This document shows, one piece after another, positions 1 to 16,500 of a stretch of DNA of 64,000 nucleotides. The position numbers and the translations under genes are program-made. The stretch lies in assembly GCA_025454395.1 (NCBI GenBank), contig JALOOM010000022.1:1-64000 (forward strand), written 5' to 3'. How positions within the stretch are numbered: the stretch's first letter is position 1; each line of letters starts with the position of its first letter. The DNA is from Elainella sp. Prado103. GTDB lineage: Bacteria > Cyanobacteriota > Cyanobacteriia > Elainellales > Elainellaceae. Under the pieces are notes generated by a model. The model was not told the DNA's origin and did no database searches. It saw only the letters and a list, made by a program, of their open reading frames with translations.

Positions 1-1
1 A

Positions 2-103
2 ACAGAACATAAGCTTTGGTTTGCTCAGCAGTTAGAAAATTCACAGAATCAGATTGCTGAGCTAACAGAACATAAGCTTTGGTTTGCTCAGCAGTTAGAC
101 ATT
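2..103 (+). repeat. 63-base tandem duplication (1.6 copies)
   Basis: The stretch from position 2 recurs at 65 and runs for about 37 identical bases before the window's first copy gives way. The period is 63 bases, that is 21 codons or three coiled-coil heptads, so the duplication lengthens the coil without changing register. More copies may lie upstream of the window. Confidence 0.85.
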
Positions 104-391
104 TTGAATCAAGAGCTTTTGAAAGTAACCTCTAGTTTAGAGCAGCTTCAGATAGAGTTGAGGAATACGCAGGTAGATCTGTCTCGAACTCAGCTACGGT
201 ATAACCATCTGAAAGCTAGGCTGAATGTAAAGCAGAGTAAGTTGCTAGAAACACGCTCTCAACTTAAAGAGAAAAAACTGCAGTTGCAAGGAATTCGTCA
301 AGATTTAAAGTATACAAAAGAGACAATTGAAGCTATGAAAAGTAGTAAGTTCTGGAAGCTCAGAAACGCCTGGTTTAAACTTCGCCGTTGA
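2..391 (+). CDS. Coiled-coil protein with SKFW tail (5' end missing)
   Basis: The reading frame is open from the first bases of the window to the stop at 389-391, so this is the C-terminal end of a longer protein; a TTG at 104 is only an internal codon. What is visible is almost entirely a predicted coiled coil rich in Q, L, E, R and K. It includes a 21-residue unit (three heptads) duplicated exactly at the DNA level with a 63-base period. The protein ends in the motif SSKFWKLRNAWFKLRR, also seen at the end of the methyltransferase at 1359 and the glycosyltransferase at 2324. By analogy with those neighbours the missing N-terminal part is probably a glycosyltransferase or methyltransferase domain, but nothing in the window shows which. 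Confidence 0.75.
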   Translation, partial: TEHKLWFAQQLENSQNQIAELTEHKLWFAQQLDILNQELLKVTSSLEQLQIELRNTQVDLSRTQLRYNHLKARLNVKQSKLLETRSQLKEKKLQLQGIRQDLKYTKETIEAMKSSKFWKLRNAWFKLRR

Positions 392-464
392 CCTTATACA
401 ATTTGAATTTTCAGGTTTTCTAAGTATTGGGTTATACAGATGATAATTTAGTAAGGAGTTAATC

Positions 465-1160
465 ATGACTGATGATTTAGATAATAAAGTTATACAGGCT
501 CAAGCTGATCTGCGAAGAGTTCTAGAGCAAAGATATTCGAGCAATGGAGCCTTCCTTGCCCACAAATTTATGAGCGACTCGGAAGCTCCAGAGTTAGAAA
601 TAGAGAATACTATGAATTCGCGTATTTTGCCTGAGCGACGATACATTCTTCCTCATCTGCCTCAAGAATGTATTTTTGCTGAAGTAGGAACACAAACTGG
701 GGCGTTTGCGAAAGTGATTCTTGATTCTCTCAATCCTAAAGAGCTTCATATTATTGATATTGACTATTCATACTTTAACTTTCAATGGGCAAATTCTTAC
801 TTGACAAAAAAGCAGTTAATTCAACATACAGGAGATTCCTCAAATATACTTTCCCAGTTTCCAGATAATTACTTCGATGTTATTTACATTGATGCTGATC
901 ATAGTTATACCAGCGTTACGAAGGATCTTGTACAAGCGGAACTGAAGATAAAACCTGAAGGATGGATTATCTGTAATGATTACACATGCTGGTCTCCTCT
1001 CGAAGTAACAAAATATGGAGTTTACCGCGCTGTAAATGAGTTCTGTCTATCTAAAGAATGGGGAATTCAATTTATAGCTTTACATAAGTGGGGCTATCAT
1101 GATGTGGCACTGAAGCATATTAATCATCCGCACTTTCATGATAGTTTATCGATTCAATAA
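465..1160 (+). CDS. Class I SAM-dependent methyltransferase (Methyltransf_24 type)
   Basis: A 231-residue stand-alone methyltransferase. The Rossmann-fold SAM-binding glycine motif is EVGTQTGAF (residues 73-81), followed by an acidic strand end IIDID (96-100) and YIDADHSY (141-148), the typical strand-4 signature of the Methyltransf_24 group that modifies small molecules or glycans. The ATG at 465 has a clear ribosome-binding site (AAGGAG) about 8 bases upstream. It sits between genes for SKFW-tailed proteins but has no such tail itself. The substrate is unknown; the context (glycosyltransferases on both sides, same strand) suggests O-methylation of a surface glycan sugar. Codon use is AT-rich like its neighbours up to about 4.6 kb. 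Confidence 0.85.
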   Translation: MTDDLDNKVIQAQADLRRVLEQRYSSNGAFLAHKFMSDSEAPELEIENTMNSRILPERRYILPHLPQECIFAEVGTQTGAFAKVILDSLNPKELHIIDIDYSYFNFQWANSYLTKKQLIQHTGDSSNILSQFPDNYFDVIYIDADHSYTSVTKDLVQAELKIKPEGWIICNDYTCWSPLEVTKYGVYRAVNEFCLSKEWGIQFIALHKWGYHDVALKHINHPHFHDSLSIQ

Positions 1161-1358
1161 AAATATTTTGGGAGAAATGGGCAACATCTTAACTACAATT
1201 ACAGCACTTTGCTTAACGGTTAGGTACAGGCTCGAAGCTCAGAAAGCGTCTAAATCATGGGTTCTGAATATCTTGTGTGCTTAAACCAGGAAAGAAGTGC
1301 TGTATATTGTTCAGAGCAGTAAAAAAGAGAATTTTTCTCACGGTTTTTAAGGAGTGAT

Positions 1359-2288
1359 ATGCCTACTATTGAAGAAAACTTGGGAATGTGGTCTCACTAT
1401 GATTGGTCTCAGAGCGGTGATGAATGGTCACAATGTTGGGGAGAAACGACAGAACTTTGGTGGGGTACGATTTTCCCTAGAATAAAAGATTTTGTACCAG
1501 CGCCAACCATTCTGGAAATTGCCCCTGGCTATGGTCGATTTACTGACTATCTAAGGTTCCTTTGCAACCAATTGATTGTGGTTGATTTGACACCAAGTTG
1601 TATTGAAGCATGCCGCCAGAGATTTTCAGAGAGCCGCAACATTCAATTCTTTAATAATGATGGTAAATCATTAGAAATGATTGAAGATCAATCCATCGAC
1701 TTCGTATTTAGTTTTGACTCTTTAGTTCATGTGGAATCGGATGTTTTAGAAGCCTATTTGCAGCAACTCAGTCATAAACTCAAGCCAAATGGAATCGGTT
1801 TTTTCCATCATTCAAATATTGGAGAATATGTCAATCCTGAGACTGGTGAAACTGAATTTCTAAATGTTCATTGGCGTGCAAAGACTGTAACATCGCAGGA
1901 TTTTTTTGATATCTGTAAAAATGCTGGATTGCAATGTATTAGTCAGGAACTTGTTAACTGGAGTTGGGAACACCTTAGTGATTGCTTTTCTGTTTTCACA
2001 CCTCAGGGCTCAAAATGGATTCGACCCAATACAGTTGTCAGAAATGATCAATTTATGCAGGAGGCTGCTCGATTAGTTAACTTGAACAAACTATATGGTT
2101 TACCTGGACATAAATTGAATCCTGAGAAGTTATTCCGTCGTGAGCAGCGATTACGGCGGGAATTGCAGAAGTCTAGAGAAGAATTAGATGTACTGAGAAA
2201 TAGAATCACGGCAATGGAAACTAGCAAATTCTGGAAATTGCGAAAAATGTGGTTCTATTTTAAGCAGTCTTTAAAATTGATTAAATAA
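1359..2288 (+). CDS. SAM-dependent methyltransferase with C-terminal SKFW tail
   Basis: A 309-residue protein whose first 250 residues form a class I methyltransferase: motif I is EIAPGYGRF (53-61), the acidic residue of motif II is in VVDLTPS (74-80), and a phenylalanine/histidine-rich post-motif region follows. The last 50 residues are a short coiled coil of R, E, Q and L, then AMETSKFWKLRKMWF, the tail shared with other proteins of this block. The start at 1359 is set by AAGGAGTG immediately upstream. A 198-base gap with no gene separates it from the upstream methyltransferase. It probably methylates a sugar of the same glycan as the neighbouring glycosyltransferases; the acceptor cannot be told from sequence. 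Confidence 0.85.
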   Translation: MPTIEENLGMWSHYDWSQSGDEWSQCWGETTELWWGTIFPRIKDFVPAPTILEIAPGYGRFTDYLRFLCNQLIVVDLTPSCIEACRQRFSESRNIQFFNNDGKSLEMIEDQSIDFVFSFDSLVHVESDVLEAYLQQLSHKLKPNGIGFFHHSNIGEYVNPETGETEFLNVHWRAKTVTSQDFFDICKNAGLQCISQELVNWSWEHLSDCFSVFTPQGSKWIRPNTVVRNDQFMQEAARLVNLNKLYGLPGHKLNPEKLFRREQRLRRELQKSREELDVLRNRITAMETSKFWKLRKMWFYFKQSLKLIK

Positions 2289-2323
2289 CCTGTTCAACTC
2301 GATATAGTACAAGGTGATAGATA

Positions 2324-4555
2324 ATGGTTCAGAAAGTTTGTCTTATTTCGCCTGAGATCATCGGCCCACACAAAAATGGAGGGATAGGAACTCATGTTTT
2401 CTACCTTGCCAAACTTCTATCACAGGACTCAAATTGTCAAACAACAATTCTCTATACAGGTGAGATTGCAGAGGAAACTGTTGAGTATTGGCGTAGACAT
2501 TTTAAGACGAAACTTGGATTGAGATTCATCCATGAATCAGAACTGCCTCCTGTATTTTTGGGAGATATTTGTAACGCACGTTCTCATTTCCTTCGCTCGC
2601 AAAAAGTATACAATTGGTTGAAAAATCAAGATTTTGATGTCTGTCATTTTCAAGACTTCATCGCTGATGGTTTTACTTCGATTCAAGCTAAGCGAACGGG
2701 GCAAGCATTTTGTAAAACGATACTCACTTGTATGGCTCATAGTTCTCATACTTGGGCTTTTCAGGCGATGCAAGCTTTTCCTACTTCAATAGATCAATTA
2801 TTACTTGACTATGCAGAGCGATACTGCATGCAGTATGCAGATATAGTAATTAGTCCTAGTGAGTATATGTTTACTTGGATGGAGGAAGCTTGTTGGGAAG
2901 TTGGTAAGGATAGACGACTGCTTCCCTGTCTAATGGACTTGAATCGAACAGCACCTTCAACTGATTTTTCTGGAGACCATATCATTTTCTTTGGTCGTTT
3001 AGAAACTCGCAAAGGTCTAGAATTATTCCTAGATGCTCTGAGAAACAGTGCTTCTCAGCTAAAGCAATATACTAAGGGAAAAAGCCCAGTCAAAATCACT
3101 TTTTTGGGTAAAGTTTCTAACACTACGTATCAGGATACCCAGCAGGCAATTCAAAGATTTTTCGATGAATTTTCTGAGATCTATACTTATGAATTGTTAA
3201 GCGATAAATCTCAACCTGAAGCCCTCAACTTTTTAACGAATCATGCAACTGCACTCATTGTGACACCATCTCTCATTGATAACTTTCCCTGTGCTATTTT
3301 GGAATGTGTTGAATTGAATCTGAATGTAATTGCCTCCAATGTAGGGGGCATCCCAGAGATCTTAGGGAAAAATCGTCTGTTTGCTCCTAATGTCGATTCT
3401 CTATGTGAAAAGCTTGAGAGTTGCTTCAAGGATGGTGTGCCGCCGCTAGATAAAAAATACTCAGTAGCTAAGGCGCAATCCTTGTGGAAGGAGTTTCATC
3501 TTTCACTTGTAAAAAATCCACCGTTTCAAGATCTACCGGATACTGATCAAAAACATTTTCCTTTAGTGTCAGTCTGTGTTCCGTACTATAACTGCGGTGA
3601 TTACCTGCCTACTCTGCTACTGTCACTAGAACGACAAACATTCAAAAATTTTGAGGTGATTGTTGTGAATGATGGCTCTACAAAGGCGGACGATTGTCAA
3701 ATTTTCGAAGCAATGCAAGAGAATTATTCAATAAAATATGGATGGCGTTTTATTTCTAAACCGAATGGTGGTCTTGGAAATGCTAGGAATTTCGGCGTTT
3801 GTCATTCTCAGGGAGATTATATAGCTTTTGTAGATGCTGATAATGTAGCTGAACCTGAAATGTTGGACAGGATGGTCAAAGGTGCTCTGAGTTCCAACAT
3901 TGATTGCTTAACTAGCTATTTTCGTGCTTTTGATACTGATCATGAACCATTTTCTCAAATTTATTCTTATGCGTATATGCCAGTTGGAAATTGCACGGAA
4001 GCCGGGATATACGAAAATATTTTTGGTGACGCAAATTTTATTATTAAACGTTCTGTTTTTGAGTTCTTAGGCGGATTTAAAGAGAGTAAAACTCATACGT
4101 GGGAGGACTGGGAGTTTTTGACTCGCTTGAGTTTACTTGGCTATAGTCTTGATGTAATTCCTGAGTTTCTATTTCTGTATCGTCATCGCTCAGATAGTTT
4201 AACTCGAACTACTAGTCGATATGGTAACCATCTTTTCGCAATTACGCCATATTTGAAAGATCAGCCTCTTTGGCTTCAACGTCTTCTAATTAATAGCATT
4301 GGTGCTAGTAAATATGTCTATGGACAGGCAGAGCAGCGCATTCCTTATCTTCAATTGAGGCTGAAAGAGGTTAGACAGAAGGCAAATCAGACTCAGAAAA
4401 GGTTAAATGAAACTCAAAGAGTATTAAATGATCTTCAACAAGAACTGAAGCAAGTAAAAGATAGAATCAACGCAATGGAGACCAGCAAGTTTTGGAAACT
4501 ACGTAAGGTTTGGTTCAAGATCAAACAAATACTGCACTTACCTTCTAATGAGTAA
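2324..4555 (+). CDS. Bifunctional glycosyltransferase, GT4 + GT2, with SKFW tail
   Basis: A 743-residue fusion. Residues 1-390 are a GT-B fold GT4 enzyme: N-terminal GGIGTHVFYLAKLL, the FFGRLETRKGLELFLDAL strand-helix that opens the nucleotide-sugar domain, and an acidic E in the DNFPCAILECVEL region. From about residue 415 a GT-A fold GT2 domain begins (VSVCVPYYNC), with DDGST-like NDGST and the metal-binding VDADN near residue 502, and a WEDWEF acceptor/catalytic motif. The last 65 residues are a coiled coil plus METSKFWKLRKVWFKIK. Each half would transfer one sugar, so the protein can add two residues in succession. The gene stops with TAA directly followed by an ATG (4556), the likely original start of the next gene. 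Confidence 0.88.
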   Translation: MVQKVCLISPEIIGPHKNGGIGTHVFYLAKLLSQDSNCQTTILYTGEIAEETVEYWRRHFKTKLGLRFIHESELPPVFLGDICNARSHFLRSQKVYNWLKNQDFDVCHFQDFIADGFTSIQAKRTGQAFCKTILTCMAHSSHTWAFQAMQAFPTSIDQLLLDYAERYCMQYADIVISPSEYMFTWMEEACWEVGKDRRLLPCLMDLNRTAPSTDFSGDHIIFFGRLETRKGLELFLDALRNSASQLKQYTKGKSPVKITFLGKVSNTTYQDTQQAIQRFFDEFSEIYTYELLSDKSQPEALNFLTNHATALIVTPSLIDNFPCAILECVELNLNVIASNVGGIPEILGKNRLFAPNVDSLCEKLESCFKDGVPPLDKKYSVAKAQSLWKEFHLSLVKNPPFQDLPDTDQKHFPLVSVCVPYYNCGDYLPTLLLSLERQTFKNFEVIVVNDGSTKADDCQIFEAMQENYSIKYGWRFISKPNGGLGNARNFGVCHSQGDYIAFVDADNVAEPEMLDRMVKGALSSNIDCLTSYFRAFDTDHEPFSQIYSYAYMPVGNCTEAGIYENIFGDANFIIKRSVFEFLGGFKESKTHTWEDWEFLTRLSLLGYSLDVIPEFLFLYRHRSDSLTRTTSRYGNHLFAITPYLKDQPLWLQRLLINSIGASKYVYGQAEQRIPYLQLRLKEVRQKANQTQKRLNETQRVLNDLQQELKQVKDRINAMETSKFWKLRKVWFKIKQILHLPSNE

Positions 4556-4620
4556 ATGACACCTACTTCTCAAAGGTTAGTAATGTTCAATATGAGCGCC
4601 AATTTGAACCTTCTGTCTCG

Positions 4621-7503
4621 GTGTTGGTGACACTCTATAATTATGCTGCGTATATTCGTACCTGTCTCGATAGTGTCTGTGCTTCCCAATCAACAGAGCT
4701 TCCAGGTGGATTTGAGATCATAGTCATTAATGATTGCTCAACTGACAACTCCGCTCAACTCGTTGAAGATTATCTCAACCAGCATCCGGAGATTCCGATT
4801 TGCCTGGTTAACAAACATCTCAACACGGGCTTGGCTGATGCCAGAAATTTGGGACTAAGCTTGGCGCGTGCTCCCTACATGTTTATTCTAGATGCCGATA
4901 ACCTGATTCGTCCTAATTGCTTATCAGTCCTATATCAGACAATTCGAGATTCCCAGTATGCAGCCGTTTACAACACAATCCAACGATTTCTAGATTCGAC
5001 CAGTAAAGAAGATGGACTAACCTCCTGTCAAGCTTGGGATGTGCATGAATTAGTGCAGTATCCTTACATTGATGCGATGGCAATGCTCGATCGCCAGATT
5101 CTATTATCAGTTGGTGGGTATTCAACTGAGCTGATTCAGTATGGCTGGTTTGGTTGGGAAGATTATGATCTATGGCTAAAGTTAGCTCAGGCAGGTTACT
5201 CCTGTCAGTTTATCCCAGAAATTTTAAGTGAATATCGAGTTCACTCTGGCTCGATGATCAATATTACTAATTTATATACTCAAACTTTTGCTGAATATTT
5301 CAAACAAAAGTTCAAGCCGCTTGTTCAAAAACATAATCCTCCTGATCTGTTGTTTGGCTATCCTCAGCGATCTCAGCCATCGATCCAAGAGCAGCAAGCG
5401 AAGCAAATTCATCGTCTCACTCAACAGATTGAGCGCCTTCAAGCGCAACTGGAACAAGCGAGAAGAAGTGATCAAGAACAAACAAAGCAAAGAAAGCAGC
5501 TTAGATTGCAGCGCGATCGACTACAAAGACAATTAGAACAAGTCGAGGCTGAACTGCGGTTTCGTGATCTAGAGCTTCAGTTTGCAACCACTGAGCGCGA
5601 TCAATATCGAGGCAGGCTACAGGCGATCGAAAGCAGCAAATTCTGGCAGTTGCGAATGCAATGGATGCTGTTAAAAAATCAATTGTTGGGTAGTAAAGAA
5701 AGTCCTTTTTGGTTACCTGAAACTCCTTTTCCCCAACCGATACGATCGGAGTTACCTCAACTTCCCCCGGAGCAACCAGCTCCCAAGTCGCGTCCTACTG
5801 CTAGCACAGAGCAGCCTTATGAACGTTGGCAAAAACATCATGAACCTCGAACCAGTGACTATCAACGGATGAAAGAGCTGGTGGAGATTCTACCTGCAAA
5901 GCCCCTGATCAGTATTCTTGTTCCTACCTACAACACACCAGAAGAATTTCTATATGCAACGATCGACTCTGTTGTTGGTCAAATCTATCCATATTGGGAA
6001 CTGTGTATTGCAGATGATGCTTCAACCCAACCCCATGTTCGAACAATTTTGGAAGAGTATGCTGTTCAAGATCAGCGTATCAAAGTAGTGTTTCGAGATG
6101 CCAACGGACACATCTCACGTTCCTCTAATTCTGCATTAGACTTGGCAACAGGAGAGTTCATTGCCCTCCTCGATCATGACGATATGCTCCGTCCTGAAGC
6201 ACTTTATGAAGTTGCTTTGTTGCTTAATCAGCATCCAGAGGCGGATATGATCTACTCGGATGAAGACAAAATTGATGAGTTGGGAAATCGGCACGATCCC
6301 TTCTTCAAGCCTGATTGGTGTCCAGACTCTTTTCTCACTCGCATGTATACCTGCCATTTAGGGGTTTACCGCCGATCCATTGTGACCAAAATCGGTGGAT
6401 TCCGAGTGGGCTATGAAGGTAGCCAGGATTACGATCTGGTACTGCGCTTTACAGAAGAAACCGATCGAATCTTTCATATTCCTAAAGTGCTTTACCACTG
6501 GCGGGTTCATCATCAGTCTACGGCAAGTACCTCGGATGCAAAGCCTTATGCCTATATTGCTGCGAAGAAAGCACTTGGTGAAGCTCTAAAACGGCGCGGC
6601 GAAATAGCCACAGTTGAACATGTACCAGAATACCTGGGGTTTTATCATGTTCGATACCAAATTACGGAACTTGGTAAGGTCAGCATTATTATCCCAACAC
6701 GAGATCTAGGAGAGATTCTAGATCAATGTTTGACCTCTATTTTTACCAAAACAACTTATCCAAATTATGAAGTTGTTTTGATTGACAACGGTAGCATTGA
6801 AGAATATACGCAAACAGTTATCAAACAATGGCAAAAGGAAGAGCCTGAACGGTTTCGATGTCTTCCTCTGGATATTCCATTTAATTATTCTAAGTTGAAT
6901 AATTATGGAGCTAGTGAAGCATTGGGTGAATATTTAATTTTTCTGAATAATGATACAGAGGTTATTACTAATGATTGGTTAGAGGCGATGGTGGAACAAG
7001 CACAACGCCCATCAGTAGGTGCAGTAGGTGCTCTCCTCCTCTATCCAGATGATGTTGTTCAACACGCTGGAGTTGTTGTTGGGGTTGGCCCCTTCGCAGG
7101 ACATGCTTTTAGCCACTTTCCTATTGATTCTCCTGGCTATTTTGGTCAACTGCTAACAACGACTAATTATTCAGCAGTAACGGGTGCTTGTCTAATGTGT
7201 AGACGATCGGTTTTTGAAGCAGTTGATGGTTTTAATGAAACTTTGGCAGTTGCATTGAATGATATTGACCTCTGCCTGAAAATTCGTGAGCAGGGATATA
7301 ATAACTTATTTACTCCCCATGCCAAGCTCTATCATTACGAATCTAAGAGTCGAGGCTATGAAGATTCTCCTGAAAAACAAGCTAGATACGATCGAGAATG
7401 TGAGCAGATGAGGCAAAAGTGGAAAACAATTTTTGAAAATGATCCATGTTATAGCCCTCATCTAACTCGTATGGCCTGTAATTATAGTATCAGAGAGGAA
7501 TAG
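4621..7503 (+). CDS. Large glycosyltransferase with three GT2 domains; 5' end probably frameshifted
   Basis: The open frame encodes 960 residues: a GT2 domain (1-235, LDADN), a long Q/R/E coiled coil (254-335), the SKFW motif (ESSKFWQLRMQW, about 337), then two further GT2 domains (about 430-650 with LDHDD and 688-935 with LNNDTEV), ending with the ESKSRG motif of RfbC-like rhamnan/O-antigen synthases. The only in-frame starts are GTG 4621 and following TTG/GTG codons, which cut off the first beta strand (VSVLVTLYNY). The frame is open back to 4552 with coding-like residues but no start. An ATG at 4556, touching the previous stop, would join this frame if one A were added to the run at 4572-4574. 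The true gene is therefore probably 4556-7503. It is a paralogue of the genes at 7895 and 29566. Confidence 0.88.
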   Translation: MLVTLYNYAAYIRTCLDSVCASQSTELPGGFEIIVINDCSTDNSAQLVEDYLNQHPEIPICLVNKHLNTGLADARNLGLSLARAPYMFILDADNLIRPNCLSVLYQTIRDSQYAAVYNTIQRFLDSTSKEDGLTSCQAWDVHELVQYPYIDAMAMLDRQILLSVGGYSTELIQYGWFGWEDYDLWLKLAQAGYSCQFIPEILSEYRVHSGSMINITNLYTQTFAEYFKQKFKPLVQKHNPPDLLFGYPQRSQPSIQEQQAKQIHRLTQQIERLQAQLEQARRSDQEQTKQRKQLRLQRDRLQRQLEQVEAELRFRDLELQFATTERDQYRGRLQAIESSKFWQLRMQWMLLKNQLLGSKESPFWLPETPFPQPIRSELPQLPPEQPAPKSRPTASTEQPYERWQKHHEPRTSDYQRMKELVEILPAKPLISILVPTYNTPEEFLYATIDSVVGQIYPYWELCIADDASTQPHVRTILEEYAVQDQRIKVVFRDANGHISRSSNSALDLATGEFIALLDHDDMLRPEALYEVALLLNQHPEADMIYSDEDKIDELGNRHDPFFKPDWCPDSFLTRMYTCHLGVYRRSIVTKIGGFRVGYEGSQDYDLVLRFTEETDRIFHIPKVLYHWRVHHQSTASTSDAKPYAYIAAKKALGEALKRRGEIATVEHVPEYLGFYHVRYQITELGKVSIIIPTRDLGEILDQCLTSIFTKTTYPNYEVVLIDNGSIEEYTQTVIKQWQKEEPERFRCLPLDIPFNYSKLNNYGASEALGEYLIFLNNDTEVITNDWLEAMVEQAQRPSVGAVGALLLYPDDVVQHAGVVVGVGPFAGHAFSHFPIDSPGYFGQLLTTTNYSAVTGACLMCRRSVFEAVDGFNETLAVALNDIDLCLKIREQGYNNLFTPHAKLYHYESKSRGYEDSPEKQARYDRECEQMRQKWKTIFENDPCYSPHLTRMACNYSIREE

Positions 7504-7505
7504 TC

Positions 7506-7840
7506 ATGGATATTCTCGATCAATATACAACCCTTGCCCCCAGTATCCGGGAAACGATCGATATCTTTAAAGGAGAATGGTCATCTCGGCTCCCAACTAT
7601 CTTGGGAGATGCAGTAGCCGGAGGAGTTGATACCTCGGTAGATGTACATTTGAGCCCAGTAATCCAGGCTGATTATCAACGACAACTGAATCAGTTGGAG
7701 CAACAACTCTCTCAGGTCAAAGCCAGTTGCAGGATGCCCAAAACCGAATTGCGGCGATGGAAACCAGCAAATTTTGGAAACTGCGGCAATCCTGGTTTCG
7801 GTTCAAAAAGGCAGTAGGCTTGCCCAGCAATGAGCGATGA
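7506..7840 (+). pseudogene. Internally deleted, frameshifted methyltransferase-like gene with SKFW tail
   Basis: An ATG at 7506, two bases after the previous stop and after a GAGAGGAA ribosome-binding site, opens a frame that ends at 7817. Its first 30 residues (including IFKGEWSSRLP) resemble the N-terminus of a class I methyltransferase family known to me from cyanobacteria, but no SAM-binding domain follows: the sequence jumps to a short coiled coil. After codon 7722-7724 the conserved tail continues in another frame, reading LQDAQNRIAAMETSKFWKLR and on to LPSNER with a TGA at 7838-7840. One T missing from the TT at 7727-7728 explains the shift. So the catalytic core is deleted and the remnant is frameshifted, while the tail remains intact at DNA level. 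Confidence 0.72.
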
Positions 7841-7894
7841 ACATCAGCGAATCTCCCGCACTCCCTTTAATCCTCGCTGCCTCCAATCCTTACC

Positions 7895-9898
7895 ATGACT
7901 GATCGATATCAGATCACTGAATTGCGTCGCCAAGTTCGGCAACTTCAGCAAAACCTTCAGCCTCTACAAAGCCAACTTCAGCAAACCGAACGTGAAAAAC
8001 AACTGGCTGAAGCCGAACGCGATCAATACAAAGGACGGCTACAAGCGATCGAAACCAGTAAATTCTGGCAATTGCGGAATCGTTGGATCCGCTTGAAAAA
8101 TCAACTGTTGGGTCGGCAAGATGCACTCGATTGGCAACCAGAACTACCGGAATTGCCTCCGATCGAGCCACCGCCACCCATTCCAGAGGAGTCTCCCTAC
8201 GATCGCTGGCAGCGATATTATGCCCCTCGTTCTGCTGATTATCAGCGCATGGCAGAAACGGTGAGCATCCTACCCTACAAACCTGTGATCAGTGTGATTG
8301 TACCCGTTTACAATACACCAGCAGTATTCTTGCAAGAAGCGATCGAGTCTGTTTTGCATCAAATCTATCCCCATTGGGAACTGTGTTTGGCGGATGATGC
8401 CTCTACCGAACCCCAAGTGCAAACGATTTTACAGGACTATGCAGCAAGAGATGCCCGCATTAAAGTGATGCAGCGATCGGAAAATGGGCATATTGCACGC
8501 TGCTCGAATTCCGCCTTAGAGTTAGCAACAGGTGAATATATTGCCTTGCTCGATCACGATGATTTACTCACCCCAGATGCCTTGTATGAAGTGGTGTTGC
8601 TTCTGAATCGCCATTCCGAAGCCGATCTGATCTACTCCGATGAAGATAAGCTAGATGAGCAGGGCCACTTGAAAAATCCTGCTTTTAAGCCAGACTGGGC
8701 TCCAGATTCTTTTCTGTGTCGCATGTATACCTGTCATCTGGGGGTCTATCGGCGGGCGATCGTCCAGCAAATTGGCGGATTTCGACCGGGCTATGAAGGG
8801 AGTCAGGATTATGATCTGGTACTACGGTTTACCGAGCAGACCGATCGAATTTTTCATATCCCTAAAATTCTCTATCACTGGCGCATTCATCCGGACTCGA
8901 TCGCCCAGAGTGCCGCTGCTAAACCCTATGCCTATGATGCTTCTCAACGGGCGTTAGCAGAAGCTTTGGTGCGTCGCGGTGAACCGGGTCAGGTGCTGCC
9001 TATCCCACAACATCCAGGACATTATCTGATCCGTTATCAGATCACCCATCCTCAATTGGTTAGCGTGATCATTCCTACCCGCGATCTGGGCGAGATGCTG
9101 GATGCCTGTTTAAATTCCATTTTTTCCCAAACGACCTATCCTGCCTATGAAGTGATTGTGATCGACAATGGTAGCATTGAACCCGAAACCCAAACCATTC
9201 TTCAGAAGTGGCAGAATCTGCAACCCGATCGGTTCCGATACTATTCCCTTGATATTCCGTTTAACTATTCCAAAATTAATAACTTTGCCGTTACCAAAGC
9301 GCAAGGTGAATATTTTCTCTTTCTCAATAATGATGTTACGATTATTACTCCTGATTGGATCACGGCGATGGTGGAGCAGGCACAACGGTCATCGATCGGG
9401 GCAGTGGGGGCAAAGTTACTCTATCCGGATCAAACGATTCAACATGCAGGGGTTGTCTTGGGGATCGCTGCCTCTACCGGACATGGTCATAAGCATTACC
9501 CCGCCGATGCCTTTGGTTATATGGGACAAATTGTGAGTATCTGTAACTATTCGGCCGTAACGGGGGCTTGCCTGATGTGTCGTCGAGAGGTATTTGAAGC
9601 CGTGGGAGGCTTTGAAGAACAGCTAGCTGTGTCCTACAACGATATCGATCTTTGTCTTAAATTTCGGGAACGCGGGCTGCACAATGTCTACCTGCCCCAT
9701 GTGCAACTTTACCACTATGAATCGAAGAGTCGTGGTCAAGATGTTTCGCCGGAAAAACAGGCGCGCTTCTTCCGTGAAACGGACTGGATGCAGCAGCGGT
9801 GGGCAACCTGGATGCAGCGCGATCCCTACTACAACCCTAACCTCACTCGGAAGCATCAGGATTATCGAATTCTGGATCCGGAAACAGAATTACCCTGA
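7895..9898 (+). CDS. Glycosyltransferase with N-terminal coiled coil/SKFW motif and two GT2 domains
   Basis: A 667-residue protein. It opens directly with a coiled coil (residues 5-50), then ETSKFWQLRNRW (53-64), then two GT2 domains: about 131-350 (VISVIVPVYN, LDHDD, SQDYDLVLR) and about 388-640 (VSVIIPTRD, LNNDVTI, NDIDLCL, ESKSRG). This equals the last two thirds of the protein at 4621, to which it is clearly paralogous; the first GT2 domain is absent here, so either it was lost or the other gene gained it. The start at ATG 7895 follows an in-frame TAA at 7868; no strong ribosome-binding site is visible. Likely role: transfer of two sugars (rhamnan/O-antigen-like) in the same pathway as its neighbours. 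Confidence 0.88.
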   Translation: MTDRYQITELRRQVRQLQQNLQPLQSQLQQTEREKQLAEAERDQYKGRLQAIETSKFWQLRNRWIRLKNQLLGRQDALDWQPELPELPPIEPPPPIPEESPYDRWQRYYAPRSADYQRMAETVSILPYKPVISVIVPVYNTPAVFLQEAIESVLHQIYPHWELCLADDASTEPQVQTILQDYAARDARIKVMQRSENGHIARCSNSALELATGEYIALLDHDDLLTPDALYEVVLLLNRHSEADLIYSDEDKLDEQGHLKNPAFKPDWAPDSFLCRMYTCHLGVYRRAIVQQIGGFRPGYEGSQDYDLVLRFTEQTDRIFHIPKILYHWRIHPDSIAQSAAAKPYAYDASQRALAEALVRRGEPGQVLPIPQHPGHYLIRYQITHPQLVSVIIPTRDLGEMLDACLNSIFSQTTYPAYEVIVIDNGSIEPETQTILQKWQNLQPDRFRYYSLDIPFNYSKINNFAVTKAQGEYFLFLNNDVTIITPDWITAMVEQAQRSSIGAVGAKLLYPDQTIQHAGVVLGIAASTGHGHKHYPADAFGYMGQIVSICNYSAVTGACLMCRREVFEAVGGFEEQLAVSYNDIDLCLKFRERGLHNVYLPHVQLYHYESKSRGQDVSPEKQARFFRETDWMQQRWATWMQRDPYYNPNLTRKHQDYRILDPETELP

Positions 9899-9944: not shown

Positions 9945-10107
9945 TTCACAAATCAAACGATCGCAAAACTGGAAAACCCCCACTGGTAACTGGCTGATTG
10001 ATGCGAGTGGTGAATGCTCCGGAGCTTTAAAATAATTTGGCCTACCGACTTATGGTAGATTGCCCGTTAGCGTCTTTGCGCCGTTGCAACTGATTCCCGA
10101 TTATCCT

Positions 10108-12546
10108 ATGAGTTTTCCCGCCGATCCCCAATGGCTTGATGTGCAAGCTTTCCTGAAGCAATATGCTCAGCCGACGGATGCGATCCTGGCTCCGATCGAC
10201 TTTCTGGAGATGTTTCCGGCCCAAACCTATCCCTACAATGTTTCTACGCGGCTGCCGGTTAATCATTTCGGATTTGTGGTGTTTCATAAGGCGATGCTTT
10301 CCGAAATCGATCCTACCTTGGCGTTGGAAGTGCTCGATCGGTTTCAGCCTGTCTATGGCAATGCCGTATTTGTGGTGTATGCCCAGACAGACTTGAAGTT
10401 GCCCTCACCGGATGAGAATGACCTGAAAGCCTTGCTGCTAGCCGTGCAACAGCGATCGGTCAAACTAGAGTCGCGCACTCAACCGAGATGGGCGGCTGTC
10501 ATGGTGACCCATAATCAGGCGGGGCTGCTCGCTCGCTCCTTGGCTGCCATCGCCGATCTGAAAATCCCCATGGTGGTGGTGGATGATGGATCGATCGAAC
10601 CCCACCGTACAGCAAATCAGATTTTGGTTGAGCAATATGGAGCGCAACTGCTGGCATTGCCTACCCATCAAGGGGCGGCGGCGGCGATCAATGTGGGCGT
10701 GGGCTATTGGTTAACCCAGCCAGAAATTCAGTGGATTTCCTGCTTTCAGGATAATGTGCAGGTTCAAGCTGAGTTGCGTCGAGGGCTGGAAGCGGTGCAG
10801 CATCCGCAAAACTTCCCACTGTTGACCGGATATGATGCGCCTGAACATGCGAGTGTTGGGAGTCAGCCGATCGGAGATTACCGGATCTTATTGAAACAAG
10901 CTACCTCAGGCGTTCACCTCCATGCTCACCGCGACTATTGGCAGGGGGTTTTGCCAGTGCCGCCGCTCTATTCCCAATCTCAACTGGCCGCTGGACAAAG
11001 CAGCGATGCGGATTGGTGGATTACGGCTTGGTCGCCCCGATCAATTCTCAAACAAGGCGGGCAGGTGGCTTGTCTACCGGGTTTGGTCACCCAACTCGAT
11101 CCCAGCAGGGCAGTCGATCTAGAGACAATTTTAAGTTCAGCCCCGCAGATGCCGTCTCTATCCACTGGATCAGTGCCGCTCCAATTCTCGACTCCTCCCG
11201 ATCGATCGACCCCCGTTGTGAATCCTGCTGTCTCCCAACCGCTGGCTGCCGATCTGAGTTTGCAGGATGTCAAAGTTTTGGTAGATGGTTACAACTTGCA
11301 GCTCACTAAAGGCACTGGCATCAAAACCTATGGATTAAGTTTGATGGAAGGACTGAATCAACTGGGAGCCTCGGTCGATATTTTGCTCAGTCGGGGCGGC
11401 TATCGATCGAATCCGATCCTGGATGAGGTGTTTTTCTTCGATAATCAGTCCGATCGCCAAGACTGGATCACGTTAGGAAAATGGTTGCTGAAATCCCTAT
11501 CTCCCTTCTATCGGGCTAAACGTCGTAAATCGTTTGCTGGGTTAGTGGTGAAACGGGGCAAATACACCGAAGATTTCTTAAAATATGCCACTTCCTTCAG
11601 TTTGCCGCAATGTTATGACTTGGCGAATGGATTATATAGCCGTCTGAAGCTGACGACTCAGATTTCAATTGCAGAAAAAGTTGATGTCTGGCATGCCACT
11701 TACCCCTTGCCAATGAATGTGCGAGGCGCGAAAAAAATCACCACAATTCATGATCTGATTCCATTGCGGCTACCCTATGCCACCTTGGATAGCAAGAAGG
11801 TCTTTTACAATAAACTGCGCGACTCGCTGAAAGACTCAGCGGTGACCATCACCGTATCTGAAAATTCTAAACAAGATATCCTCACCTATTACGATGTTGA
11901 TCCTGCTAAAATCATCGTGACTTATCAACCGATCGCCCTGCCACCTTTAGAAGCCACCGATGAGGAAGTAGAGTTTTTTCTGCGACGCTACGGTTTAGAG
12001 TATCAAAACTATCTGCTGTTTGTGGGCGCGATCGAACCCAAGAAGAATGTTGGGCGACTGCTGGATGCCTACGCTTCGATGGATGTAGATATGCCGCTGG
12101 TGATTGTTGGGAAAAAGGGTTGGCTATGGGAAGATGAATTGGGTAGAACAGCTTTCATGTTCGAAGGGAAAGACAATAAAAAGAAAGTCAAACTACTAGA
12201 GTATATTTCTGCGGATAGTTTGCGCTATATCTACCGGGGTGCCTATTGTTTGGTCTTTCCTTCCCTGTACGAAGGCTTTGGATTGCCGCCCCTTGAAGCA
12301 ATGAATTTTGGTTGCCCGGTCATCACCTCAAATCTATCCTGTCTACCTGAGATTTGTGGGGATGCCGCCCTGTATGTTGATCCCTATAACGTGCGAGATA
12401 TCCAGGATAAGCTGGAAACCTTGCTAGGCGATCCCCATCTGCGGAGCCAGTTGGTGCGAGCAGGGACAGTGAATGCGAAAACGTTTAGTATGCAAAACTA
12501 TGTGCAACGGCTCCATCAAGCCTATACCACTGCTCTGAATGGGTAG
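10108..12546 (+). CDS. Glycosyltransferase fusion, GT2-like + GT4
   Basis: About 812 residues from ATG 10108. A TTG at 10060 would add 16 residues, and the ribosome-binding site decides neither. Residues 1-110 form a small uncharacterised N-terminal module, about 127-330 a GT2-like domain (VVVDDGSIEPH), then a P/S/T-rich linker, and about 387-810 a GT4 domain of the type that begins LVDGYNLQLTKGTGIKTYG. That domain shows the GT4 hallmarks LFVGAIEPKKNVGRLLDAY and FPSLYEGFGLPPLEAM, the latter with the conserved glutamates. The GT2-like part has no clear DXD (it reads QDNVQ), so it may be inactive or regulatory. No SKFW tail. It closes the first glycan block; 200 bases without a recognisable gene precede it. 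Confidence 0.85.
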   Translation: MSFPADPQWLDVQAFLKQYAQPTDAILAPIDFLEMFPAQTYPYNVSTRLPVNHFGFVVFHKAMLSEIDPTLALEVLDRFQPVYGNAVFVVYAQTDLKLPSPDENDLKALLLAVQQRSVKLESRTQPRWAAVMVTHNQAGLLARSLAAIADLKIPMVVVDDGSIEPHRTANQILVEQYGAQLLALPTHQGAAAAINVGVGYWLTQPEIQWISCFQDNVQVQAELRRGLEAVQHPQNFPLLTGYDAPEHASVGSQPIGDYRILLKQATSGVHLHAHRDYWQGVLPVPPLYSQSQLAAGQSSDADWWITAWSPRSILKQGGQVACLPGLVTQLDPSRAVDLETILSSAPQMPSLSTGSVPLQFSTPPDRSTPVVNPAVSQPLAADLSLQDVKVLVDGYNLQLTKGTGIKTYGLSLMEGLNQLGASVDILLSRGGYRSNPILDEVFFFDNQSDRQDWITLGKWLLKSLSPFYRAKRRKSFAGLVVKRGKYTEDFLKYATSFSLPQCYDLANGLYSRLKLTTQISIAEKVDVWHATYPLPMNVRGAKKITTIHDLIPLRLPYATLDSKKVFYNKLRDSLKDSAVTITVSENSKQDILTYYDVDPAKIIVTYQPIALPPLEATDEEVEFFLRRYGLEYQNYLLFVGAIEPKKNVGRLLDAYASMDVDMPLVIVGKKGWLWEDELGRTAFMFEGKDNKKKVKLLEYISADSLRYIYRGAYCLVFPSLYEGFGLPPLEAMNFGCPVITSNLSCLPEICGDAALYVDPYNVRDIQDKLETLLGDPHLRSQLVRAGTVNAKTFSMQNYVQRLHQAYTTALNG

Positions 12547-13450: not shown

Positions 13451-13560
13451 TGCATGGAATCTTGGTTTTAGCTGCTTGGTCAATAGCTAGAGTGGTTAAC
13501 GGGTTTGCTCAGGTTGGCTCCTAGCGCTTGGTTCGTTTTATTTCTGTAGAGGGTGTATCA

Positions 13561-16500
13561 ATGTCACGGGATGCTTTGGTAGTCGGGATTAATACCTATC
13601 AGTATTTGCCCAGCTTGAAAGCTCCAGCGAGGGATGCAGAGGCCATCGCTCAACGGCTGCACATGCAGGGCGAGTTTCGAGTCCATCGGTTGCCGGAGGT
13701 GATTCAAAACGGCAAGCCCCAGATTGGTCAGAAAACGCCAGTTACCCTGCGGGAGCTAGAAACAGCCTTAATTAATCTGTTTAAGCCGAAGGGGCGATCG
13801 GTTCCTCAGACGGCTCTGTTTTACTTCTCTGGTCACGGTATCCAGCGAGATGCCGGGATTCAAGAAGGCTACTTGGCCCTGAGCGACTCCAATCCTGATC
13901 AGGGGTTTTATGGGTTGTCCCTGTTCTGGTTGCGTCGTCTGTTGCAAGAAAGTCCGGTGCGACAACGGGTGATTTTGCTGGACTGCTGCCACAGTGGCGA
14001 ACTACTGAACTTTTTAGAAGCTGATCCTGGTGCCCATCCCGGAACCGATCGTCTATTCATGGCCGCCTCCCGTGACTCTGAAACTGCTTATGAATCCCTC
14101 AACAGTGAGTTTAGTGTGTTCACTGAGGCATTGTTGACGGGGTTGGATCCGAATCGGTTGCCGAGTGGCATGATCACCAACCACTCACTCACCGATTGGG
14201 TCAACCATGCTCTGAAAGGTGAGATCCAGCAACCCTTATTTGAAAGCTCTGGCAGTGAGATTATTCTGACTCGCTGTGGGGTTGGTGAAGGCAGTGGATC
14301 GGGGATCGCCAGTCAGCCTGAAACGGAGGCGATCTGCCCCTATCAAGGCTTGGATTGTTTTGAAGAATCCCAAGCAGACTACTTCTTTGGCCGCGAAGAC
14401 CTGACGGCACAACTACTCCAAAAAGTCACACAGGCATCTTTTGTGGCGGTAACAGGTGCTTCCGGCAGCGGTAAATCTTCCCTGATCCGGGCGGGGCTGC
14501 TGGCCCAACTGCGACAGGGTCGGGCTGTGCCCGGTAGTCAGCATTGGAAGGTGAAACTGATCACCCCAACCGAGAATCCGTTGAAAAGCCTGGCCGCCGC
14601 TTTCATTGATCCGGAGGTGAGTGATCTAGAACGGGCAGAGCAATTGCGCAGGGCCGAAACTTTCCTGCAAGCGGGTGGGACTGGATTGGCCCAGTTGGTG
14701 CGAGCCAGTTTGCCCGAATCTGGCACCACTGCCGGACTACTGCCGGAATTGCGCCCCCGGTTTCTGCTGGCGATCGATCAGTTTGAGGAAGTCTTTACCC
14801 TCTCCCATGGCTCCCAGGCAGAACGAGAGCGGCAGGAGTTTTTTGATTGTTTGATTGGTGCATTGGATCAGTTAAAAGATTGCTTCAATGTGGTGATTGG
14901 GCTGCGATCGGATTTTCTGGGCAAATGCTCGTTGTATGAAGGGTTATCCCAGCAGATTTTCCCGCATCAGTTAGCGGTTGTGCCGTTGAAATATGAGCAG
15001 ATCAAAGCGGCGATTATGCGTCCGGCCCAAAAGGTCGGGCTAACTTGCGAGCCTAACCTGGTCTATACCATGATGATGGATGTAATTGGCGCACCCGGTG
15101 AGTTGCCGCTGCTGCAATACACGCTGTTAGAACTGTGGCAGGATCGGCGGCTGGGCCCGGATGGATCGGCTCGCTTGACGCTGGATGCTTACCAAGCCCT
15201 GGGCGGCATTCGTGGCACCTTGCAAAAACGCGCCACCGATCTGTTTGAGCAGTTGAGCCCGGAAGAGCAAGCCATTGCCAAACGGATTTTTCTATCCCTG
15301 ACTCAATTAGGCGAAGGCACAGAAGATACGCGCCGCCGGGTCTTGAAGTCGGAGTTGGTCAGTCCGGCCTTTCCCGCTGTGTTAGTGAATCAGGTGTTGG
15401 AAAAGCTAGTGGCCGCTAAGCTAATTGTGATTAGCCAGGCCAATCTTGCGGCTCAAGAGTCTTCGGAGAATTCCGCTCATTGTGCAACATCCTTCCCCTC
15501 ACCCGTTGCCTCATCCCCGGTTACCTCATCCCCGGTTACCTCATCCCCGGTTGTCCCATCGCCAGTGAGCTTCCTGGATGGTGGACTGTCTGCAAAACGG
15601 GTAGGAGCAGAACTGCAAGAGACAGGCGATCCTGCTGGGGAGACGGTGCGATCAAGTGATCTTCGCTCAAGTGATCTGCGATCGAGTGACCTTCAAGAAA
15701 TGGTTGATGTGGCCCATGAAGCGCTGATTCGCAGTTGGATCTTGCTGCGCAATTGGTTGGAGGAACAGCGGGAGATGTTGCGTCGGCAGCGACGAATTGA
15801 GCAGGCTGCTCTGGAGTGGCATCAAGCGGGTGAGCCGACCACGGGTGATTATCTGCTCCATGGTTTACGCCTGCGGGATGCGGAAGACTTCTTGAAACTG
15901 AATGCGGCAGAGCTATCGTCCCTGGCCCAACAGTTTATTCAGGTGAGCTGTCTAGAATGTCGGCGAGTCAGACGAGCATCGCGCCGGTTGCAGTGGGGCA
16001 TTCCCTCGTTGCTTGTGGCTTCCTTAACGATCGTGTTTACCCAATATTACGGAGTGGTGCGTACCCAAACCGAAAAAGATGACCAGCTCCAGCAGTCGAT
16101 CGCCCGAGAACGCGCTGCCATTGCCCAAGCGGTGATCCAAGACCCCCATGCCGACCCGATGACGGCCTTGTTGATTAGTCGGTTTGCAGCGGCTGCCCAA
16201 CCCGCCAGCTATGAAGCGCAAGCCAGTTTACGCAAGGCTCTACAAAAATTACAGCTTCAGTCAGAGTTGCCAGGACACCAGCGTCCGATCCAGCAAATTC
16301 GATTTAGTCCCGATCGACGCTATCTCGCGACTGCCGATGCATCGGGTGAAATTCGGCTGTGGAACCTGGATCCTCAGACGATTCACAATCAGGTGCTGCA
16401 AGCAGAAAAAATTCTCAACCCGGTAGGCTTCCCTTCAGAACAATCCAACCGTCCTCCGGTTAGCTCCTCTCCAACCGCGCCATCCTCGCTACCATCTATG

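Follow-up and report, generated by a model that had tools for sequence, protein, structure and literature searches.

The first 8.1 kb of a 64,000-nucleotide stretch from the cyanobacterium Elainella sp. Prado103 (assembly GCA_025454395.1, contig JALOOM010000022.1, positions 1 to 64,000 of the forward strand; the whole stretch is called the window here) holds six copies of a coil-plus-tail module, in which a long coiled coil runs into a short tail with the consensus [M/I]-x-x-S-K-F-W-[K/Q]-L-R-x-x-W-x-x-[L/V]-K, on enzymes of a glycan cluster. The module probably forms the membrane end of a coiled-coil scaffold like that of WbdD of Escherichia coli, here employed by many enzymes of a cluster, and would bind the membrane or a partner. 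The present analysis yielded the module and its carriers, a genomic link to the wzm-wzt export genes, a matching motif in WbdD and a predicted helix break at an invariant serine.

The module in the window and in Pegethrix

A profile built from the six window tails recovered all six copies where the original prediction had placed them, with E-values of 1e-17 to 1e-23 that are partly a matter of construction, matches elsewhere being independent. In the rest of the genome the same profile search returned a single further clear copy (E 5e-8), which ends a methyltransferase encoded on contig C74. The cluster is laid out as follows, with the profile match given as the tail:

1-99 (+), two copies, from 1 and from 64, of a 63-bp repeat (21 codons, three heptads) in the coiled coil at the contig edge, seen in the sequence
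2-391 (+), coiled-coil protein truncated by the contig edge, C-terminal part only; tail 293-388 (IEAMKSSKFWKLRNAWFKLRR)
465-1160 (+), methyltransferase (Methyltransf_24) of the same cluster, without a tail
1359-2288 (+), methyltransferase, coil and C-terminal tail (2172-2285)
2324-4555 (+), GT4-GT2 glycosyltransferase, coil and C-terminal tail (4433-4552)
4621-7503 (+), GT2, coil, tail (5584-5703) and GT2-GT2; frame open from 4552
7506-7840 (+), remnant of a methyltransferase-coil-tail gene, tail 7715-7837; intact orthologue at L212:12136-13146
7895-9898 (+), coil, tail (8006-8125) and GT2-GT2
10060-12546 (+), GT2/GT4 glycosyltransferase at the cluster end, without a tail

The GT4-GT2, triple-GT2 and double-GT2 calls made in the original prediction agree with the domain assignment given here. 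The window begins at base 1 of its contig (C120), and 2-391 is therefore the cut-off end of a longer protein. Contig C74 breaks off within a frame that encodes both a sulfotransferase domain and a long coil, C120 opens inside a coil with the 63-bp repeat, and the two frames may well be one repetitive gene split by an assembly break; when the remainder of 2-391 was sought across the genome, the 99-base edge sequence was present solely at the contig edge. Position 4621 is probably not the true start of the triple-GT2 protein, judging from a frame that stays open upstream of the GTG at 4621 but offers no usual start codon between there and the stop at 4549, and from the lack of about 45 N-terminal residues that its Pegethrix orthologue has.

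The same cluster is present in Pegethrix bostrychoides, there with seven tails, in the order methyltransferase (MT)-tail, GT2-MT-tail, MT-tail, GT4-GT2-tail, GT2-tail-GT2-GT2, MT-tail and tail-GT2-GT2. Its sixth tail gene is an intact methyltransferase-coil-tail orthologue of 7506-7840 and stands between the same two neighbours, so the window copy, which retains the N-terminus and the tail, has lost its catalytic core and had its frame shifted, and its earlier description as a remnant is borne out. Tails of the window and Pegethrix orthologues match at 28/31 (triple GT2), 22/31 (double GT2) and 21/31 (GT4-GT2) residues, and among identical residues able to vary in codon the codon differs at 16/26, 13/20 and 14/18, respectively. 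Thus each tail appears to have descended together with its enzyme over this distance and to be kept by selection at the level of the protein, with which the codon differences at identical residues are consistent. Identical residues are often encoded by different codons in orthologues and paralogues alike, which rules out that the six tails were recently copied from one another or homogenised by gene conversion. Measured from a shared anchor to the motif, the coil is 113 residues long in 4621-7503 and 153 in its Pegethrix orthologue (L165:9913-12084), so that coil length is changing faster than either end.

Internal tails are most simply explained if an enzyme with a tail became joined to a polymerase-like double-GT2 unit. 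Relatives of the N-terminal half of 4621-7503 exist as separate GT2-coil-tail proteins (L134, L145), relatives of its C-terminal half exist as separate tail-less double-GT2 proteins (L188), and both 4621-7503 and 7895-9898 continue past the tail into a double GT2 in the same chain.

Two AlphaFold models place a long coil helix that is interrupted exactly at the invariant serine and followed by a separate helix of about 15-17 residues. In the model of 2324-4555 (overall pLDDT 66, tail near 80), a helix at 648-720 breaks at Ser721 and is followed by a helix at 722-736; in that of 4621-7503 (pLDDT 85.7), the coil helix spans 84 residues (255-338), breaks at Ser339 and is followed by a helix at 340-356, with a disordered linker (358-395) between the tail helix and the GT2 pair.

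Distribution and carriers of the module

The six-tail profile matched 79 of 386 genomes in a sample of the phylum at E 0.001 or better, in 47 of 143 genera, often with several copies per stretch. In a scan of about 85,000 bacterial and archaeal species the best 77 loci were all cyanobacterial, which says only that the exact SKFW form is cyanobacterial among those best matches, and viral contigs that were searched held no relatives of the module. From 139 loci, 234 non-redundant tails were collected in 229 proteins (176 C-terminal, 46 internal and 12 near the N-terminus). Glycosyltransferase (GT2, GT4, GT8), methyltransferase (several unrelated families) or sulfotransferase domains were assigned in 212 of the 229 carriers (about 93%), the other 17 being fragments, short coil-tail frames and proteins of unknown type; the module that had been proposed as shared by glycan enzymes is thus real and nearly restricted to them.

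Across 107 tails the W is invariant, S-3 and K-2 are kept at 98%, F-1 and R+3 at 96% and W+6 at 94%, percentages that are inflated because the tails were gathered with a profile of the same motif. Looser forms exist, such as SSDWWQLRERWW. The heptad positions of the coil (-30/-27/-23/-20/-16/-13/-9/-6) run into the tail in phase, and most cyanobacterial carriers stop 15-24 residues past the W. Over the cyanobacterial tail there was no match in Pfam, NCBIfam or PDB, apart from matches to coiled-coil composition, and no printed instance of the motif strings was found in the collection of papers searched.

Tail identity is 0.599 within a catalytic class and 0.595 between classes, and a tail that tracks catalytic class is ruled out by these values. 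The suggestion that the tail travels independently of function therefore stands for deep time, over which tail and catalytic class are uncoupled, and not for short times, over which each tail stays with its own enzyme, as the Pegethrix comparison indicates. Tails of the same cluster are hardly more alike (0.538) than those of different clusters (0.523), an excess reached in 65 of 1000 label shuffles, and a cluster-specific pairing code was rejected for want of a significant excess within a locus.

Two observations on carriers may be added. One family consists of coil-tail proteins of about 480 residues each (L059:7764-9242, L099:7058-8488, L144:7234-8694, L075:8367-9806); its N-terminal 350 residues have no match in Pfam or NCBIfam except through the coil, and the family is possibly an undescribed glycan enzyme. 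The tail-bearing protein at L087:8475-13268 is 1597 residues long and combines a sulfotransferase domain with radical SAM/SPASM and class III aminotransferase domains.

Comparison with WbdD and link to wzm-wzt export

WbdD of E. coli O9a and O8, which terminates O-antigen chains and acts as their molecular ruler, has the same build as the tailed enzymes, with an enzyme domain, a long coil and an S-x-x-W-R segment at the coil end. Right after the coil, the O9 (strain HS) and O8 proteins read EIEKIHRSRSWRMTKGYRYL and QMADLHNSRSWRITQPLRWL, respectively, sharing the motif S-R-S-W-R-[MI]-T. The related form SxSW[RK]xTxPLR is found at the same place, C-terminal or internal, in alphaproteobacterial methyltransferases, sulfotransferases and glycosyltransferases and in one Klebsiella GT2. 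Like the cyanobacterial tails, these stand after a coil and on the same range of enzymes, and their profile matches in register; they differ in the residues at -2, -1, +3, +5 and +6 (SKFWKLRxxW here, SxSWRxTxPLR in the proteobacterial form). The two profiles align gaplessly, W on W, with an hhalign probability of 90% (E 1.5e-6), and when the W column is left out 18 of 20000 permutations of the columns score as high as observed, figures that are somewhat optimistic since the proteobacterial rows were partly chosen by a regular expression sharing motif positions. A Klebsiella pneumoniae glycosyltransferase beside the his operon and UDP-galactopyranose mutase (L198:3813-5129) ends in SLSWKVTRPLRLIKALITRKM.

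The original prediction knew of no role assigned to similar tails, but one has been published for the C-terminus of WbdD, the protein that bears S-x-x-W-R after its coil: it contains a membrane-locating amphipathic helix and a polymerase-recruiting region (PMC3447403, PMC11231755). WbdA is recruited by this C-terminal region (PMC3482155), and the length of the coil determines chain length (PMC5082667). Truncation of WbdD to residues 1-600 gives a soluble construct, in contrast to the full-length protein, which is difficult to bring into solution (PMC3447403), and residue 600 falls within the motif region (592-606).

As in WbdD, an extended coil lies between the enzyme and the C-terminal region in the window proteins, seen in the heptads that stay in phase and in the 84-residue helix of the model. 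The N-terminal terminating enzyme of the WbdD type, a methyltransferase, kinase or Kdo transferase, may have a counterpart in the window in the two methyltransferase carriers (1359-2288 and the remnant) and in what is probably a sulfotransferase; other carriers there are glycosyltransferases. WbdD is a single terminator per cluster and continues for about 100 more residues past the motif, whereas here up to seven enzymes per cluster bear the module, many of them glycosyltransferases. In domain order, 4621-7503 and related long proteins resemble ORF6 of Klebsiella O7 and WbbB of Klebsiella O12, with a catalytic domain, a coil and two glycosyltransferase modules per chain; those two proteins join terminator, coil and polymerase within one chain (PMC11231755), although the N-terminal domain of 4621-7503 is a GT2 and not a known terminator. 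Among PDB entries the 4621-7503 model best matches chondroitin polymerase K4CP and heparosan synthase 2 (2z86, 8viw), through the glycosyltransferase parts only. To our knowledge the coil-tail module does not occur in either of these enzymes.

Apart from any likeness in sequence, an adjacent wzm-wzt pair was found in 46 of 123 independent tail locus groups, and in 45 of these 46 the genes lie on the same strand in the order wzm-wzt-tail gene, with a median distance of 34 bp. The order in E. coli O8 and O9 is wzm-wzt-wbdD, and many cyanobacterial tail loci share this wzm-wzt-enzyme arrangement. Where tail genes begin within 150 bp of wzt, the first of them mostly encodes a methyltransferase and sometimes a sulfotransferase; O8 WbdD is likewise a methyltransferase without a kinase. 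Wzt has the size of a carbohydrate-binding protein (C-terminal extension) in 45 of 55 loci, counted before duplicates were merged. Wzt_C was detected in 63 of the 79 tail genomes as opposed to 21 expected, a comparison uncontrolled for relatedness and genome size, and of 150 Wzt_C genes 39 have a tail no more than 20 kb away, where about 2 would be expected. Flippase-like genes are present in 34 tail locus groups. Mann, Kimber and Whitfield, as cited in PMC11231755, reportedly tied wzm-wzt to coiled-coil terminators in 2019.

Possible roles and significance

If the module forms the membrane end of a scaffold like that of WbdD, the coil would keep the catalytic domain at a distance from the membrane, the chain would break at the invariant serine, and the short basic aromatic helix that follows would dock the protein on the cytoplasmic face, where the lipid-linked glycan would be built and the polymerase or exporter held. 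WbdD would employ this design in one chain-terminating enzyme and cyanobacteria in several enzymes of a cluster (methyltransferases, probably a sulfotransferase, and GT4/GT2 enzymes), some of which have a double-GT2 unit directly after the tail in the same chain, and the enzymes may in this way be gathered at one site. Only tentatively do we extend the proposal to a common address tag, by which coil and helix would send unrelated cytoplasmic enzymes (six here, seven in Pegethrix) to one membrane site or partner, with the WbdD ruler as a special case.

Several points count against a WbdD-type scaffold. The cyanobacterial matrix applied to WbdD alone is unconvincing, since 21 of 500 shuffles do as well on the O9 protein and its best match in the O8 protein is at another site, and the choice of proteobacterial rows described above lessens the weight of the profile comparison. 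The hydrophobic moment of single tails does not exceed that of shuffled tails. No wzm-wzt pair is present in the stretch examined, in the window cluster or in its Pegethrix counterpart, and the Wzt_C genes of the same genome lie on other contigs; because wzm-wzt was looked for there and not found, the window cluster itself is not classed as a WbdD system.

The shuffle result also bears on a plain peripheral-membrane anchor, in which the helix would tether each enzyme to lipid with no shared partner and no complex, and which we think unlikely. A mean net charge of +5.4 over the 18-residue helix, which is basic and carries several aromatic residues, would suit such an anchor, as would the absence of cluster-specific likeness among tails and a periodicity in the column-mean hydrophobicity, which gives only a weak peak at about 110 degrees. 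The helical-wheel amphipathicity of the original prediction fails for individual tails on the same shuffles, by which a plain amphipathic helix was rejected, and "amphipathic" is at most a fair description of the tail, not a demonstrated property. Sequence is moreover kept beyond composition, even allowing for the inflation of the percentages given above, and adjacency to wzm-wzt suggests a specific setting. Strong conservation of individual residues across unrelated enzymes, the near-constant wzm-wzt-tail gene order where the pair is present and the recruitment of WbdA by WbdD (PMC3482155) would instead favour docking to protein and not lipid, with the tail as an address tag for one common partner (Wzm/Wzt or a polymerase) in an export or polymerisation complex. 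This we hold to be somewhat less likely still, given that 77 of the 123 locus groups, the window's included, have no adjacent wzm-wzt, that 16 of the 79 tail genomes have no Wzt_C match, and that many carriers are transferases that would have no need for the exporter. It is very improbable that the module is a recombination-friendly linker with no function of its own, whose repetitive coil DNA and conserved end spread through fusion and duplication: the coils are repetitive (the 63-bp repeat) and the window does hold fusions and a broken copy, but the tails are strongly conserved in protein and not in DNA, and their differing codons exclude recent copying and fit purifying selection.

Two features of the window may be recorded beside the cluster. 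The G+C content is 38-43% over positions 1-8000 and mostly 48-55% beyond, as for an acquired glycan island. Positions 13528-19242 encode a 1904-residue protein whose translation, read by eye, resembles a caspase-like (metacaspase) N-terminus with an NTPase and WD40-type repeats after it.

The novelty appears to lie in a single cluster's use of the one module on many of its enzymes, and in the recognisable sequence of that module. A short conserved module that can be recognised by sequence and that matches WbdD at its membrane end would make it directly testable how loosely attached glycan enzymes meet at the membrane. Marking up to seven enzymes per cluster, the module would help to assign cyanobacterial clusters and their chain terminators, and it could serve glycan engineering as a targeting tag.

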